A stretch of 64,000 bases of DNA from Streptomyces sp. NBC_00659 (GTDB lineage Bacteria; Actinomycetota; Actinomycetes; Streptomycetales; Streptomycetaceae). The position numbers were made by a program, and so were the translations under genes. The DNA is taken from assembly GCF_036226925.1 (NCBI RefSeq), contig NZ_CP109031.1, positions 3,162,001 through 3,226,000 of the forward strand, written 5' to 3'. Shown piece after piece: positions 18,402 through 24,570 of this stretch. The notes below the pieces were generated by a model. That model was not told where the DNA came from and did not search any database. It was given only the letters and a program-made list of their open reading frames with translations. Within the stretch, counting starts at the first letter, position 1. Each line of letters begins with the position of its first letter.

Positions 18402-18484
18402 GACCCGAACCTAGCGGATGTCGCCCAGGTCACTCCGGGCCCGTGCCCCAGGCAACACCCGGCGGAATCCGGGCGGCCGGTAGA

Positions 18485-18690
18485 GTGTGCGCGTCGTCAT
18501 CACACCCTTACGAGGAGAAGCCGGTGCGAATCCGGCGCTGACCCGCAACCGTGATCCACTTCGGTGGTGAGCCGGATCGCCTCGCACGGGACGTGACCGG
18601 CTCGCGCCCTCGGCAGCCCGCCGACGGCCGGCATCGTCGAGGGATACGGAGCCGGAGCCGCCCGGATACCTCTGTGTGCCCGGTGCTGCC
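18485..18690 (+). ncRNA. Cobalamin (B12) riboswitch
   Basis: The conserved core is plain: GCCGGTGCGAATCCGGC followed by GCTGACCCGCAACCGTGAT (18519-18555), the classic B12-box, then variable stems and the closing GAGCCG...CCCGGATACC near 18649-18670. It lies directly upstream of a five-gene cobalamin-type transport operon, with the ribosome binding site GGGAGAG only ~30 bases beyond. B12 binding is expected to hide the ribosome binding site or end transcription. Exact outer boundaries are estimates. Confidence 0.9.
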
Positions 18691-18711
18691 CGGCTCCCCG
18701 CAGGGAGAGTC

Positions 18712-19950
18712 ATGTTTGTTCGCCGCACCGCAGCGGTACTGGCCGCCACCGCCGTCATCGGGGCGGTCGTCGCACCGGCCGCCTCCGCCGACTCCTCCCC
18801 GTCGCCGTCGCCCTCGGTGGCGCTGCCCTCGGGCCTGTTCGGCTCCGGCGACCCGACCTACGACGGCGTGTGGCGCCAGTCGCTCGCGCTGCTCGCCCAG
18901 CACACCGTCGGTGTGCGGCCCGCCGAGAAGGCCGTGGACTGGCTGACCGGCCAGCAGTGCGCGAACGGCGCCTTCGCCGCGTACCGCGCCGACGCGAGTG
19001 CCGCGTGCGACGCGAAGACCCAGGTCGACACCAACAGCACCGCGGCCGCCGTCCAGGCGCTCGCCGCACTCGGCGGGCACGACGACGCCACCGGCAAGGC
19101 CGTCACCTGGCTGAAGTCCGCGCAGAACAAGGACGGCGGCTGGGGCTACATGGCCGGCGGACCCAGCGACGCCAACTCGACGTCCGTCGTGATCGGCGCG
19201 CTGAAGGCGGTCGGCAAGAAGCCCGCGAGCGTCTCCAAGGACGGCAAGTCACCCTTCGACGCCCTGCTGAAGCTGTCGACGGCCTGCGACGCGGAGGGCG
19301 ACGGCGCCTTCGCCTACCAGCCCGACAAGAAGGGCAAGCTGGCGGCGAACGCGGACGCGACCGCGGCGGGCGTGACGGCCGGCATGGGCCAGGGCTTCGT
19401 GGCGGCGACCGGCTACAAGTTCGACCTCACGGGTTGCCACACCCTCGACACTCCCGACATCGCGACCGCGGCGGGGAACGGCGCCGGCTATCTCGCCAAG
19501 GCGCTGGCGAAGACCTCGTACCTGAAGTCCGCGCTCCCCGGTGCCAAGGACCAGCCCGACTACGGCAACACGGCGGACGCGGTCGTGGCCCTGTCGGCCA
19601 TCGGTGCGGCGAAGCCCGCGCAGAAGCCGCTCGCCTGGCTGGAGAAGAACTCCGCGGACTGGGCGGCTCAGTCCGGCCCCGCCGCGTACGCACAGCTGAT
19701 CTTCGCCGCGCACGCCACCGGCACCGACCCGCGCGACTTCGGCGGCAAGGACCTCGTGGCACAGCTCAACGCCACGGGCCCGGCGCCGGCCGCGGCGGGT
19801 GCCTCGGCGAGCCCGAGCGAGAAGAAGAACGACGAGAAGAAGGACGACGGCAACGGGCTCGGCGTCTGGTGGATCGTCGGCGTCGGCCTGGTCGCGGGCA
19901 TCGGCATCGGCTTCCTGATCAGCGGCCGCAACAAGAAGCGCCAGCTGTGA
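18712..19950 (+). CDS. Secreted, membrane-tethered alpha/alpha-toroid protein of the B12 operon
   Basis: This 412-aa protein has a signal peptide (residues 1-26, cleavage after ASA). An alpha/alpha-barrel region with repeated hairpins follows (WLTGQQCANGAFAAY, WLKSAQNKDGGWGYM, ADAVVALSAIGAAKP). Then come a charged Ser/Lys linker (~365-385) and one C-terminal membrane helix (~387-407) followed by a basic tail. The fold class is that of prenyltransferase/squalene-oxidase repeats, which is also that of the N-terminal domain of animal intrinsic factor and transcobalamin. First gene after the cobalamin riboswitch, and coupled to an ECF transporter, so I infer a surface cobalamin-binding role. The next gene starts within its stop codon. 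Confidence 0.82.
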   Translation: MFVRRTAAVLAATAVIGAVVAPAASADSSPSPSPSVALPSGLFGSGDPTYDGVWRQSLALLAQHTVGVRPAEKAVDWLTGQQCANGAFAAYRADASAACDAKTQVDTNSTAAAVQALAALGGHDDATGKAVTWLKSAQNKDGGWGYMAGGPSDANSTSVVIGALKAVGKKPASVSKDGKSPFDALLKLSTACDAEGDGAFAYQPDKKGKLAANADATAAGVTAGMGQGFVAATGYKFDLTGCHTLDTPDIATAAGNGAGYLAKALAKTSYLKSALPGAKDQPDYGNTADAVVALSAIGAAKPAQKPLAWLEKNSADWAAQSGPAAYAQLIFAAHATGTDPRDFGGKDLVAQLNATGPAPAAAGASASPSEKKNDEKKDDGNGLGVWWIVGVGLVAGIGIGFLISGRNKKRQL

Positions 19951-20603
19951 CCGCCCGTCGGACGACCGCGCCCCTTCTGGCCCTGGCGCTGGCTCTCCTG
20001 CTCCTCGTCCTCGGCGGCGCGGGGCAGGCCGGAGCCGTCGGCTACCGCTACTGGTCCTTCTGGGACCTGACCGGCGGGAAGTGGACCTACGCCACCCAGG
20101 GTCCGTCGACCGCGCGGCCGTCCGACGGCGACGTCCAGGGCTTCCGCTTCGCGGTGAGCGAGGACTCCCAGCACGCCGTACAGCCGCGCGGGGAGCGGGA
20201 GTTCGCCGCGATATGCGCCAAGACGCCCGCCCGGCACGGCAAGAAGCGGGTGGCCCTGGTCATCGACCCGGGCACCGCCGCCGACGCGCCGTCCGGCGAG
20301 CGGCCGCCGTCCGCGCGCACCGCCTGCGCCCAGGTCGCTCCCGACGCGAGCACCGCGGAGGCCCTGGCCGCGGTGGCAGGTCCCCTGCGCTACGACACCA
20401 ACGCCCTGCTGTGCGCCATCACGGGCTATCCGCGGACGGGCTGCGGCGACCCGGTCGCGGCCGCCGGACCGGCCGCGTCCGCCCGCCCGCACACCTCCGC
20501 ACCGGCCCGGCAGGGCCCTTCGGTGGGCCTGCTGGCGGGAGCGGCCGCGGTGGCCGCGCTGGGTGCGGCGGCCGTCTGGCAGGCCCGTCGGCGCAGGGGC
20601 TAG
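19947..20603 (+). CDS. Exported membrane-anchored protein of the B12 operon (SCO2322-like)
   Basis: This 218-aa protein has an N-terminal signal peptide (~residues 1-30), a central soluble domain (RYWSFWDLTGGKWTYATQGP, then VLRYDTNALLCAITGYP-like C-terminal part with a Cys pair) and a C-terminal membrane helix ending QARRRRG. The GTG start overlaps the previous stop by 4 nt. I recall this family as the Streptomyces SCO2322-like proteins but cannot name an activity. The shared layout with the toroid protein (exported domain, C-terminal anchor) suggests they form a surface complex that hands substrate to the ECF transporter. Confidence 0.75.
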   Translation: MTARRTTAPLLALALALLLLVLGGAGQAGAVGYRYWSFWDLTGGKWTYATQGPSTARPSDGDVQGFRFAVSEDSQHAVQPRGEREFAAICAKTPARHGKKRVALVIDPGTAADAPSGERPPSARTACAQVAPDASTAEALAAVAGPLRYDTNALLCAITGYPRTGCGDPVAAAGPAASARPHTSAPARQGPSVGLLAGAAAVAALGAAAVWQARRRRG

Positions 20604-20612
20604 GCGCAGGTC

Positions 20613-22013
20613 ATGACCGAGTCCGACCGCCCCACCACCTCCACTGGCGACCGCCCCACCACATCCACTGGCGACCGCCCCACCACATCCACTGGCGACC
20701 GCCCCACGGCGCGATGGGGCTCCGCCCCGCCCGAACGGGACCGGGAACCCCGGGTGTCGGGCCCCCGGCGCCCGGACCCGGACACACATGAGACGACGCT
20801 CCCGCCGAGCACCGGCCCGGCGGGACCGTCGCCGACCTCCCGCTCCCGCCCCCGCGCTCTCCCCCTCTCCCTCCCCCGCAGCGGTACGAGCCGTACGAGC
20901 GGTACGCGTACCGTCTCCGTGGCGAACCGGGCCCACGCCCTGCACCCCGGGGCCTGGTGGATCTGGGCGCTGGGGCTCGGTACGGCGGCCTCCCGCACCA
21001 CGAATCCGCTTCTGCTCGCGCTGCTCATGGCGGTGGCGGGGTTCGTGGTGGCCACGCACCGCACCGACGCCCCCTGGGCCCGCTCCTACACCGCGTTCGT
21101 GAAACTGGCGGCGGCCGTCCTCGTCATCCGCCTGGCCTTCGCCGTCTTCCTCGGCTCCCCGATCCCCGGCACGCACGTGATCGTCACCCTCCCCGAGATC
21201 CCCCTCCCGCACTGGGCACAGGGGGTGCGCGTCGGTGGCCGGGTCACCGCCGAGGGCCTGCTCTTCGCGCTCTACGACGGCCTGAAGCTGGCCGCCCTGC
21301 TCGTCTGCGTCGGCGCGGCCAACGCCCTCGCCAACCCGGCACGGCTGCTCAAGTCGCTGCCGGGCGCGCTGTACGAGGCGGGCGTCGCGGTGGTCGTCGC
21401 GCTCACCTTCGCGCCGCACCTGATCGCCGACGTCCAGCGGCTGCGCGCCGCGCGCCGGCTCCGCGGCCGTCCCGACCGAGGGCTGCGCGGCCTCCTGCAC
21501 GTCGGACTCCCCGTCCTGGAGGGCGCGCTGGAGCGTTCGGTCGCGCTGGCCGCAGCGATGGACGCGCGCGGGTACGGGCGTACGGCACAGGTCCCGGCCG
21601 CCGTCCGCCGGACCACCGGAGCCCTCACCCTGGGCGGCCTGCTCGGCGTCTGCGCCGGCACCTACGGACTGCTGACCGCGGCGGGCGACAGCTACGGCCT
21701 GCCGGTCCTGCTGGCCGGGCTCGGCGCGGCACTCGGCGGCCTGTGGCTGGGCGGCCGCCGCACACCGCGGACGCGGTACCGGCCCGACCTCTGGGGCGTC
21801 CGGGCCTGGCTGGTCGCCGGGTCGGGCGTGGCGGTCGCGGCCCTGATGATCGTGGCCGCCTCCAGCGACCCCGCCGCCCTGCGCCCCGGCGTCATCCCCC
21901 TGGTCGCCCCCACCCTCCCGCTCCGGCCGGCGGCGGCGGTCCTGCTCGGCCTGCTCCCCGCTTTCGCGGCCCCGGCCGCCCGGCGAACCCCTGCCCCCGA
22001 GGAGTCTTCGTGA
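20613..22013 (+). CDS. ECF transporter T component (CbiQ/EcfT family)
   Basis: The open frame gives 466 aa. The conserved energy-coupling transmembrane domain begins near residue 103 (VANRAHALHPGAWWIWALG) and has about six helices. The two coupling motifs of EcfT are visible: RLRAARRLRGRP and AMDARGYGR. The first ~100 residues are low-complexity, Pro/Ser/Arg-rich and partly encoded by 24-bp tandem repeats, so a downstream start such as GTG at 20919 is quite possible. It stands between the exported protein and the fused ATPase, overlapping the latter by 4 nt. Confidence 0.85.
   Translation: MTESDRPTTSTGDRPTTSTGDRPTTSTGDRPTARWGSAPPERDREPRVSGPRRPDPDTHETTLPPSTGPAGPSPTSRSRPRALPLSLPRSGTSRTSGTRTVSVANRAHALHPGAWWIWALGLGTAASRTTNPLLLALLMAVAGFVVATHRTDAPWARSYTAFVKLAAAVLVIRLAFAVFLGSPIPGTHVIVTLPEIPLPHWAQGVRVGGRVTAEGLLFALYDGLKLAALLVCVGAANALANPARLLKSLPGALYEAGVAVVVALTFAPHLIADVQRLRAARRLRGRPDRGLRGLLHVGLPVLEGALERSVALAAAMDARGYGRTAQVPAAVRRTTGALTLGGLLGVCAGTYGLLTAAGDSYGLPVLLAGLGAALGGLWLGGRRTPRTRYRPDLWGVRAWLVAGSGVAVAALMIVAASSDPAALRPGVIPLVAPTLPLRPAAAVLLGLLPAFAAPAARRTPAPEESS
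20624..20707. repeat. 24-bp tandem repeat at the start of the EcfT frame
   Basis: Three units (20624, 20648, 20672) and half of a fourth encode DRPTTSTG repeats if translated from 20613. The units are almost identical, implying recent expansion. They may be leader rather than coding sequence if the true start is downstream. Confidence 0.8.
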
Positions 22014-23731
22014 TCCGCTTCGAGGATGTCTCCGTGACGTACGCCGGTGCGGCCGAACCCTCCGTCCGGGGAGTGGGCTTCGAGGTGCCGGAGGGCGAAC
22101 TGGTCCTGCTGGTCGGCCCGTCCGGGGTCGGCAAGTCGACGGTGCTGGGCGCGGTGAGCGGACTGGTCCCGCACTTCACGGGCGGAACGCTGCGCGGCCG
22201 GGTCACCGTCGCGGGGCGGGACACCCGTACCCACAAGCCGCGCGAACTCGCGGACGTGGTCGGCACCGTGGGCCAGGACCCGCTGTCCCACTTCGTGACG
22301 GACACGGTGGAGGACGAACTCGCCTACGGCATGGAGTCGTTGGGCCTGGCACCGGCCGTGATGCGCCGCCGCGTCGAGGAGACCCTCGACCTCCTTTCGC
22401 TGGCCGACCTGCGCGACCGCCCGATCGCCACCCTGTCCGGCGGCCAGCAACAGCGGGTCGCGATCGGTTCCGTGCTCACCCCGCACCCGCGGGTCCTGGT
22501 CCTCGACGAACCCACCTCGGCGCTGGACCCCGGCGCCGCCGAGGAGGTCCTCGCCGTCCTCCAGCGCCTGGTCCACGACCTCGGCACCACGGTCCTGATG
22601 GCCGAGCACCGCCTGGAACGCGTCGTCCAGTACGCCGACCGGCTCGCCCTCCTGCCCGCGCCGGGAGCGCCGCTGACGCTCGGCACCCCGTCCGAGATCA
22701 TGGCCGTCTCCCCGGTCTGCCCGCCGGTGGTGGACCTCGGCCGCCTGGCCGGCTGGTCCCCGCTCCCGCTGACCGTGCGCGACGCGAGACGCCGGGCGGG
22801 AGCACTGCGCGAGCGCCTGGCCACCACCGCTCCGGCACCGGCCGGACCCGCCGCTCCCCTCAGCCCGCCCCTTCCGATTCCCGGGGCACCGGAACGCCCC
22901 GCCACCTCCCCTTCCCCGCTCTCCCGTCTCCTCCGCGGTCGTGGCGGCGGTCGCGGCCCCGCCGCCGCCCCGTCGTCGTCGGAGGTGGCCGTCGTCGCGT
23001 CGCTGGCCGTCCGGCGCGGGCGCGTCGAGGCTCTGCGCCAGGTCGATCTGACGGCGGGGCCGGGCGAGACCATCGCGCTGATGGGCCGCAACGGCGCCGG
23101 GAAGTCGACGCTGCTCGGAGCGCTGGTCGGGCTCGTCGAGCCGACCGCCGGTTCCGTACGGGTCGGCGGGGCGGCACCGCATCGCCTGGCACCGCGTGAC
23201 CTCGTACGGCGGGTGGGACTCGTACCGCAGGAACCGCGGGATCTGCTGTACGCGGACACGGTGGCCGCCGAGTGCGCCGCAGCCGACGAGGACGCCGGGG
23301 CCGCCACCGGAACCTGCCGGTCGCTGGTGTCCGAACTGCTGCCGGACATCGCGGACGGCACGCATCCCCGTGACCTGTCCGAGGGGCAGCGGCTGGCGCT
23401 GGCGCTGGCCGTCGTCCTCACCGCACGCCCTCCGCTCCTGCTCCTCGACGAGCCCACCCGCGGTCTCGACTACGCGGCCAAGGCCCGGCTGGTCGCCGTG
23501 CTGCGCGGGCTCGCCGCCGAGGGGCACGCCATCGTGCTGGCCACCCACGACGTGGAACTCGCCGCCGAGCTCGCCGACCGTGTGGTGATCCTCGCGGACG
23601 GCGAGGTCGTCGCCGACGGTCCCACCGCCGAGGTGGTCGTCGCGTCCCCGTCCTTCGCCCCGCAGGTCGCCAAGATCCTGGCCCCCGCGCCATGGCTCAC
23701 CGTCGCCCAGGTCAGAAGGGCCCTCGCATGA
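22010..23731 (+). CDS. Fused double ATPase of the ECF transporter (EcfA-EcfA')
   Basis: This 573-aa protein carries two complete ABC ATPase domains. Domain 1: Walker A GPSGVGKST (~residues 36-44), signature LSGGQQQR, Walker B VLVLDEPTSALDP. Domain 2: Walker A GRNGAGKST (~360), signature LSEGQRLA, Walker B LLLLDEPTRGLDYA. A Pro/Ala-rich linker of ~60 residues joins them. The GTG start overlaps the T-component gene by 4 nt, and its end overlaps the S-component start. Energises uptake by the ECF complex at the inner membrane face. Confidence 0.92.
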   Translation: MIRFEDVSVTYAGAAEPSVRGVGFEVPEGELVLLVGPSGVGKSTVLGAVSGLVPHFTGGTLRGRVTVAGRDTRTHKPRELADVVGTVGQDPLSHFVTDTVEDELAYGMESLGLAPAVMRRRVEETLDLLSLADLRDRPIATLSGGQQQRVAIGSVLTPHPRVLVLDEPTSALDPGAAEEVLAVLQRLVHDLGTTVLMAEHRLERVVQYADRLALLPAPGAPLTLGTPSEIMAVSPVCPPVVDLGRLAGWSPLPLTVRDARRRAGALRERLATTAPAPAGPAAPLSPPLPIPGAPERPATSPSPLSRLLRGRGGGRGPAAAPSSSEVAVVASLAVRRGRVEALRQVDLTAGPGETIALMGRNGAGKSTLLGALVGLVEPTAGSVRVGGAAPHRLAPRDLVRRVGLVPQEPRDLLYADTVAAECAAADEDAGAATGTCRSLVSELLPDIADGTHPRDLSEGQRLALALAVVLTARPPLLLLDEPTRGLDYAAKARLVAVLRGLAAEGHAIVLATHDVELAAELADRVVILADGEVVADGPTAEVVVASPSFAPQVAKILAPAPWLTVAQVRRALA

Positions 23732-24570
23732 CCACCGCCGACGCGTCCGCCGCCCGCCCACAGCCACAGGCCCGAGCCGTCCGCCTCGGCCCGCGTTCCG
23801 TCGCCGCCCTGGCCCTGGTCAGCGCGACCGGGGCCGCCGGGTTCGCCTGGCCGCTCTTCGCGGGTCCCGGCTCGCAGGTCAGCGCGCACGCCCAGGACGC
23901 GCCGTGGCTGTTCGCCGGGCTCCTCGTCCTGCTGGTCGCGGTGGCCGCGGCGACGATCTCCGAGTCGGGCCTCGGCCCGAAGGCGGTCGCCATGCTCGGC
24001 GTGCTGGCCGCGACCGGCGCCGCGCTGCGCCCGATCGGGGCCGGGACCGCCGGCATCGAGCCGATGTTCTTCCTGATGGTGCTGAGCGGGCGGGTGCTCG
24101 GGCCTGGTTTCGGCTATGTGCTCGGGTCCGTGACCATGTTCGCGTCGGCGCTGCTGACCGGCGGGGTGGGGCCCTGGATGCCCTTCCAGATGCTGGCCAT
24201 GGGCTGGTTCACGATGGGGGCCGGGCTCCTGCCGGGGGCGGACCGGCTGCGCGGCCGCGCGGAGCTCCTGATGCTCGCCGGATACGGCTTCCTCGCCGCC
24301 TTCGCGTACGGCACCGTCATGAATCTGGCCGGCTGGCCCTTCATGGACGCGCTGGCCTCGAACATCGCCTTCGACCCGCACGCCGCCGTCCCCGCCAACC
24401 TCGCCCGCTTCCTCGCCTACTGCCTGGCCACCTCCCTCGGCTGGGACCTGGGGCGGGCGGTCGTCACCGTCGTCCTGACCCTGACGATCGGCACGACCCT
24501 CCTGAAGGCGCTGCGCCGGGCCACGCGGCGGGCGGCCTTCGAGAGCCCGGTCACGTTCGAGCCCCGCTGA
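23728..24570 (+). CDS. ECF transporter S (substrate-binding) component, probably cobalamin
   Basis: This 280-aa integral membrane protein has about six or seven helices. The FFLMVLSGRVLGPGFGYVLG and TGGVGPWMPFQMLAMGW blocks are typical of S components related to the CbrT/QueT-type families. The ATGA overlap with the ATPase gene makes it the last gene of the riboswitch operon. Substrate specificity cannot be read from sequence, but the B12 riboswitch that heads the operon makes cobalamin or a precursor the best inference. Confidence 0.82.
   Translation: MTTADASAARPQPQARAVRLGPRSVAALALVSATGAAGFAWPLFAGPGSQVSAHAQDAPWLFAGLLVLLVAVAAATISESGLGPKAVAMLGVLAATGAALRPIGAGTAGIEPMFFLMVLSGRVLGPGFGYVLGSVTMFASALLTGGVGPWMPFQMLAMGWFTMGAGLLPGADRLRGRAELLMLAGYGFLAAFAYGTVMNLAGWPFMDALASNIAFDPHAAVPANLARFLAYCLATSLGWDLGRAVVTVVLTLTIGTTLLKALRRATRRAAFESPVTFEPR

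Follow-up and report, generated by a model that had tools for sequence, protein, structure and literature searches.

A putative two-part cobalamin clamp with circularly permuted domains, encoded beside an energy-coupling factor transporter in Streptomyces

Which substrate does a riboswitch-headed operon of Streptomyces sp. NBC_00659 import, and what are the two exported, membrane-anchored proteins encoded at its head? We analyzed a window of 64,000 nucleotides (assembly GCF_036226925.1, contig NZ_CP109031.1, positions 3,162,001 to 3,226,000) from a genome of 9.66 Mb in a single contig; the features described below are all on the forward (+) strand. Downstream of a cobalamin riboswitch, the genes are in the order of toroid protein, small anchored protein, EcfT, fused EcfA-EcfA' ATPase (EcfAA') and EcfS. 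Our results make it probable that this operon is a cobalamin (corrinoid) importer, in which a two-part surface clamp feeds a dedicated energy-coupling factor (ECF) transporter. The homology, the permutation, the gene linkage and the riboswitch association, on which this conclusion is based, were computed.

The toroid protein (P0001; 18712-19950, 412 residues) is an exported protein of the SCO2321 family (NF053823, 632 bits) with a C-terminal membrane anchor. Pfam families PF13243, PF13249 and PF00432 all matched it above their cut-offs, and it possesses the alpha/alpha toroid of transcobalamin (TC)- and intrinsic factor (IF)-type binders. The small protein (P0002; 19947-20603, GTG start, 218 residues) is an exported beta-grasp protein of the SCO2322 family (NF040672, 227 bits), also anchored at its C-terminus, and no Pfam match was found for it. 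The NCBIfam names of the two families give no function. Both proteins appear to terminate in a basic-flanked membrane helix, as judged from the sequence and, in the small protein, from a helix at residues 201-217 in the AlphaFold2 (AF2) model. A GPS-CTERM sorting domain was also observed on the small protein (31 bits, cut-off 28). Its closest named relative is from Streptomyces populi (91 percent), and a scan of named organisms, in which 80 of 288 relatives were listed, gave 79 Streptomyces and one "Actinobacteria bacterium".

Both domains are predicted to be circular permutants of other actinobacterial forms, and the beta domain, at least, also of the animal form. Relative to unpermuted relatives, the toroid chain would run through hairpins 3-6 and then 1-2 (numbering and anchor were read from the sequence and alignment A5). 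The AF2 model of the small protein, computed with 50 relatives, had a mean predicted local distance difference test (pLDDT) score of 84.5, with ten-residue means of 90-98 over residues 31-170. It contains strands at 31-42, 45-48, 63-71, 100-107 and 124-130, a helix at 136-143, and strands at 147-149 and 155-158. In the model, and in the swapped-order matches given below, this order reads as beta strands 3-4-5 followed by 1-2-helix-hairpin, a predicted permuted TC-type beta domain. The hairpin after the helix is described as a mark of the TC-like clade in the section of PMC1796856 that treats it.

For the rotation test, profiles were built from permuted-type domains only, their columns were shifted cyclically, and unpermuted relatives were scored. 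The mean score of the unpermuted beta domains (20 rows) was 33.9 bits at rotation 0 and 61.2 bits at rotation 66. With the unpermuted toroids (27 rows), the means were 95.2 bits at rotation 0 and 127.3 bits at rotation 228. The permuted sets peaked at rotation 0 (beta, 180 bits; toroid, 384 bits). Toroids are built of alike hairpins, the gain of the toroid on rotation was modest, and three of the 27 native rows are cut copies of another row. The apparent permutations could in this way be artefacts of internal repeats and of the register of the hidden Markov models. We regard this explanation as very improbable, because the pattern recurs in the beta domain and the domain spans are comparable (305-358 residues in permuted toroids; 306-444 residues in 24 of the 27 native rows, including up to 30 flanking residues). 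Furthermore, plain BLASTP of separate pieces gave the swapped order at 38-43 percent identity. Residues 29-78 and 96-170 of the small protein matched 98-144 and 26-91 of locus L021, and the N- and C-terminal pieces of the toroid protein matched 134-326 and 29-126 of locus L112, where positions in L021 and L112 are counted within the excised regions. In nine loci that at first gave a one-piece beta match, the unpermuted profile covered most of its own length (54-158 bits). Weak NF040672 matches in three genomes (G129, G247 and G294) were also in two pieces with the order swapped.

The animal B12 carriers were reached through natural fusions. In three loci (L044, L047 and L056), the toroid and the beta domain are in one chain with the toroid first, whereas the window has two genes with permuted products. 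The AF2 model of the L047 protein had a pLDDT of 91.5, and its top 12 Foldseek rows were all TC or IF (E-values of 1.6e-10 to 1.1e-8), with both domains covered; against the isolated TC beta domain (5np4), the E-value was 1.9e-3. By sequence, no informative match of L047 was found in the PDB. The beta part of L047 contains strands at 309-315 and 324-330, a helix at 336-342, and strands at 347-352, 355-361, 377-383, 389-392 and 406-412. This is a beta-grasp with a hairpin insert after the helix, and the small protein of the window holds the same elements in permuted order. A preliminary description of the locus, made from its letters alone, had proposed that the toroid, which resembles IF in fold class, and the second protein could be a two-part B12 trap delivering to an ECF S component. 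This proposal is supported: the second protein corresponds to the TC/IF beta domain in predicted permuted form, and the fused relative matches both domains. Since the window has two separate permuted genes, we regard the pair as a homologue that may work alike, and do not class it as IF.

Are the two proteins partners? Relatives were collected by profile search with NF040672 (SCO2322). Among 296 genomes spread across the phylum, 45 matched (13 above the cut-off), and among 296 genomes in the class-wide search, 123 matched (102 above the cut-off). Twenty loci from the phylum sample, 39 usable loci from the class-wide set and the window were examined, 60 in all. Loci were then scored for each domain with two profiles, one permuted and one unpermuted. 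Forty-four were permuted in both domains, 23 were native in both and none was mixed, where rows used to build the profiles match them by construction. One of the genomes (G105) was rescored on a longer stretch. A count by piece order agreed, with G491, in which an insertion splits the toroid match, counted as toroid-bearing.

Without an adjacent toroid, there were 16 permuted and four native beta domains. When the toroid was sought genome-wide (E-value of 1e-8) in the 16 permuted beta-only genomes, some of which are drafts, none was found. ECF genes adjoin the beta gene in 14 of the 16, and the cobalamin riboswitch (RF00174) lies 174-387 bp ahead of the beta match in 14 of the 16. The toroid-less genomes show that the beta protein can manage without a toroid. 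We also observed that four beta-only operons (L087, L088, L120 and L110 in genomes G338, G358, G516 and G372) are in genomes of 1.3-2.2 Mb, with a riboswitch about 0.2 kb upstream and a shorter EcfT match. One of the four native beta genes (G056) is at a contig end, and the other three (G129, G247 and G099) are in genomes with an unlinked toroid. In G129 and G247, both toroid pieces were found in native order; in G099, one piece only. Each unlinked toroid is preceded, at a distance of about 0.2 to 0.6 kb, by a B12 riboswitch of its own (RF00174, 32.5 bits, L207; RF01482, 52.6 bits, L208; RF01482, 43.1 bits, L209, below its cut-off of 50). Thus, B12 control extends to toroids encoded on their own. 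Glycine riboswitches (RF00504) were seen near the unlinked toroids and B12 riboswitches in L207, L208 and L209.

The 16 permuted beta-only genomes and the three native-beta genomes whose operon lacks a toroid would suit another explanation, in which only the beta protein binds B12 and the co-regulated toroid, whose fold is common to enzymes, has another role at the wall, for example with glycan or another cobamide. We consider this unlikely, since the toroid and the beta domain share their permutation state without a mixed case, are fused in three loci, and the toroids that have left the operon retain a B12 riboswitch. A squalene cyclase-like enzyme was also considered for the toroid. It is the strongest fold match, yet the riboswitch, the pairing and the operon argue otherwise.

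In the ECF tree (52 rows), whose backbone is weak, the distribution of permuted and native states requires at least four changes. The permuted row L106 is nested among native rows, with support of 99 and 87 percent in the Shimodaira-Hasegawa-like approximate likelihood ratio test. This placement suggests exchange of the toroid-beta pair. Two same-genus genomes (G162, locus L042; G404, locus L117) possess a second, unpermuted operon in addition to the permuted one; in L042, the toroid gene is behind EcfS, not ahead.

The riboswitch aptamer RF00174 at 18474-18619 is the sole Rfam match at the gathering threshold in the window. It is borderline on its own, because its score (31.6 bits) is only 0.1 bit above the Rfam cut-off (31.5 bits). 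We therefore sought RF00174 on the same strand within 6 kb upstream of homologous genes, with E-value limits of 0.01 in a first set and 0.05 in a second. It was detected in 39 of 45 genomes of the phylum set and in 34 of 40 genomes of the second set, 37 of which were hand-picked from the 123 class-wide matches. Three genomes are common to both sets and negative in both. Counted as distinct actinobacterial genomes with the small protein, 73 of 82 have the riboswitch, at distances of 174-3205 bp, although many of these linked matches score below the Rfam cut-off. Because this position upstream of the operon is conserved, we reject a chance borderline match. Six further RF00174 matches are in the genome of the window, and three of them precede metE, cobQ-cobN and nrdA.

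EcfT (20613-22013, CbiQ family) has 466 residues, of which 108-323 matched PF02361 (34.8 bits); its N-terminus is rich in Pro, Ser and Thr, and a long C-terminal region extends past the Pfam match. The motif DRPTTSTG is found three times at its start (20613-20710). In many other loci the EcfT match is about 350 residues long; in some only, it is 210-270 residues. EcfAA' (22010-23731, GTG start) has two ABC_tran stretches, and the ECF ATPase models scored under their own cut-offs on it. EcfS (23728-24570), the substrate-binding membrane component, matched PF12822 with 30.8 bits (cut-off 30.7). Thus EcfT, two ATPase domains and an S component, the parts of an ECF transporter, are all present. 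Three of the four gene junctions are 4-base overlaps, and the small protein and EcfT genes are separated by 9 bases, so that the wording of the preliminary description, five overlapping genes, is almost exact. Its placement of a riboswitch at the head of five genes was borne out by the RF00174 call and by all five genes in the order given. The same is true of its statement that BtuF- and BtuC-type proteins are missing from the operon, as neither family appears among the Pfam matches listed for the products of the operon (the list for EcfAA' comprised the best 25 of 45 rows).

In 19 of the 20 first-fetched loci, the NF040672 match is adjoined by EcfT, EcfAA' and EcfS genes like those of the window; the exception (L055) is a 7 kb contig. 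Of the 60 loci, window included, 52 have all three genes beside the beta gene. The remaining eight are L055 with its cut contig, L095, L097, L102, L107, L108, L109 and L115. In G206, a weak match with stops has an S component about 2 kb away and may be genuine. The preliminary description had named as a check whether the five genes occur together with the riboswitch, and this association is found across the phylum, in these 52 loci and in the 73 riboswitch-linked genomes.

Is cobalamin itself the substrate? The S component profile (A6) matched no PDB chain at E-values up to 10 in a sequence-only search, so that no S component of known structure was recognizable as a relative of EcfS. In one locus (L095), judged by eye, a permuted toroid-beta pair without ECF genes is divergent from cobU-cobT-cobS-like salvage genes. 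In addition, the S. lividans table in PMC8079986 lists two RF00174 elements, one before cobalt transport genes and one before cobD-cobQ-cobN, and this operon is not in that table; a review (PMC8123684) explains the name cbrUVT as standing for the uptake of cobyrinate diamide. These points would be explained if, instead of complete B12, the operon imported cobalt, an incomplete corrinoid or a precursor of B12 (cobinamide or cobyrinate diamide), the ligand of the binding proteins being related but different. We think that this is rather improbable, because cobalt needs no clamp of toroid and beta domain, and a TC-type beta domain points to a corrinoid.

The hosts bear on the same point. Of 296 genomes, CbiE was above the cut-off in 87 and EcfS was present in 59, with an EcfS threshold (at least 180 bits) drawn after the scores were seen. 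All 12 same-genus genomes carry both. Outside the genus, CbiE was found in 6 of the 47 genomes with EcfS and missing in 41, and was found in 69 of the 237 without EcfS and missing in 168 (Fisher p 0.019, kinship ignored). This distribution suits uptake of a complete corrinoid. Thus, the system is found mainly in genomes that do not make B12, with Streptomyces as the exception.

Based on these results, we infer the ligand, the geometry of the clamp and the hand-over as follows. At low B12, the riboswitch would permit expression of the operon. The exported beta protein and the toroid, anchored C-terminally, would close round B12 from both sides, with B12 bridging them; the beta protein may bind first and the toroid then close. 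A natural two-chain clamp is plausible because human TC alpha and beta domains, when produced as separate chains, come together only if cobalamin is present, and TC beta has been crystallised in its cobalamin-bound form (PMC5599065). The beta protein would be the core part, since it is retained in 16 genomes in which no toroid was detected; the toroid would raise affinity or capture. As the operon alone suggests, B12 would pass to EcfS, and EcfT/EcfAA' would drive uptake. With permutation and C-terminal anchors, the anchor would leave each domain from a different face, and we speculate that this relocation was the reason for the permutation. The wider proposal has, in our judgment, about an even chance of being correct: an actinobacterial IF-type clamp of two anchored proteins permuted in step, whose moved anchors let it close and present B12 to EcfS, the pair moving as one unit, whether by inheritance or by exchange, and the beta protein being the minimal binder in some lineages, several of them with small genomes.

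Several results weigh against the interpretation as a B12 clamp. The model of the small protein gave nothing significant in Foldseek, and no convincing relative was found by Foldseek or VIA. The beta profile found nothing credible among PDB sequences, and Pfam did not report DUF4430 (PF14478) in ten unpermuted relatives at E-values up to 1. Circular permutation of the beta domain would hide its relationship, so that fold and domain searches could be blind to the small protein. When the toroid alone was compared by Foldseek (P0001 itself was not folded), squalene-hopene cyclase was above IF, and the similarity is thus not IF-specific. Against PDB sequences, the toroid profiles found squalene cyclases, complement and prenyltransferases, and neither TC nor IF was among the rows shown. 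The domains of the L047 model are placed unlike those of holo-TC (root-mean-square deviation of about 20 Å over both). In the paired scoring, the toroid of G105 was the closest case (149.8 bits native, 123.0 bits permuted). In nine of the 82 genomes there was no linked riboswitch match. Six of these nine were rescanned (G002, G269 and G206 were left out): G104, G182, G474, G513 and G383 had none, and G023 had a match of 17.6 bits (E-value of 0.82). L107 (G513) and L108 (G383) have a permuted beta domain and no toroid, ECF genes or linked riboswitch in the fetched stretch, with five and two RF00174 matches, respectively, elsewhere in their genomes. Finally, the genome of the window has CobQ, CobN and CbiE. 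Because Streptomyces makes B12, the need for uptake is not obvious.

If a B12 clamp is encoded here, SCO2321 and SCO2322, widespread families without a stated function, gain a concrete and testable role. Circular permutation can conceal bacterial relatives of animal B12 carriers, and two partner proteins whose permutation states are locked represent an unusual evolutionary pattern. Split permuted, beta-only and fused versions within one phylum form a series for dissecting the contribution of each half of the clamp.

How does this operon compare with known systems? The preliminary description had called the arrangement not known as characterised. The general idea was predicted in 2007, when Burroughs et al. 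proposed B12 scavenging by Gram-positive SLBB/toroid proteins with CbiO and CbiQ (PMC1796856); the split permuted form was not found in print. In the open-licence literature, we found neither SCO2321/SCO2322 as B12 binders, nor a permuted TC domain, nor the double permutation, the riboswitch link and the beta-only forms. New here are the split form in actinobacteria, the findings that both halves are permuted and that their states are locked, the riboswitch linkage with the unlinked toroids, and the beta-only forms. The likeness to the operons of Burroughs et al. consists of an exported toroid and SLBB protein, a CbiO-like ATPase, a CbiQ-like protein and the proposed B12 scavenging, and the window has this combination of secreted proteins and CbiO and CbiQ genes. 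In the passages of that paper on the clade, the hosts are low-GC Gram-positives, planctomycetes, less often euryarchaea, and animals, the bacteria usually being without B12 synthesis. In contrast, the operon described here is in actinobacteria and in a genus that makes B12, and its riboswitch, S component and permutation do not occur in those passages.

ECF-CbrT of Lactobacillus delbrueckii, as described in PMC5997447, is alike in corrinoid uptake by EcfT, EcfA and an S component; the operon of the window differs in its dedicated fused EcfAA', its surface binding proteins and an S component without a PDB sequence match. BtuFCD has a function like that proposed here, whereas its families of binding protein and permease differ and were not seen in this operon. 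The BtuG and BtuH proteins of gut Bacteroidetes resemble the proposed clamp, by description only, in capturing B12 at the surface ahead of the transporter (Bacteroides; relevant parts of PMC6143338 and PMC8941943). The animal carriers TC, IF and haptocorrin (2BB6, 2PMV and 4KKI) share the toroid and the beta-grasp with a hairpin after the helix; unlike them, the Streptomyces pair consists of two separate membrane-anchored proteins, both apparently permuted.

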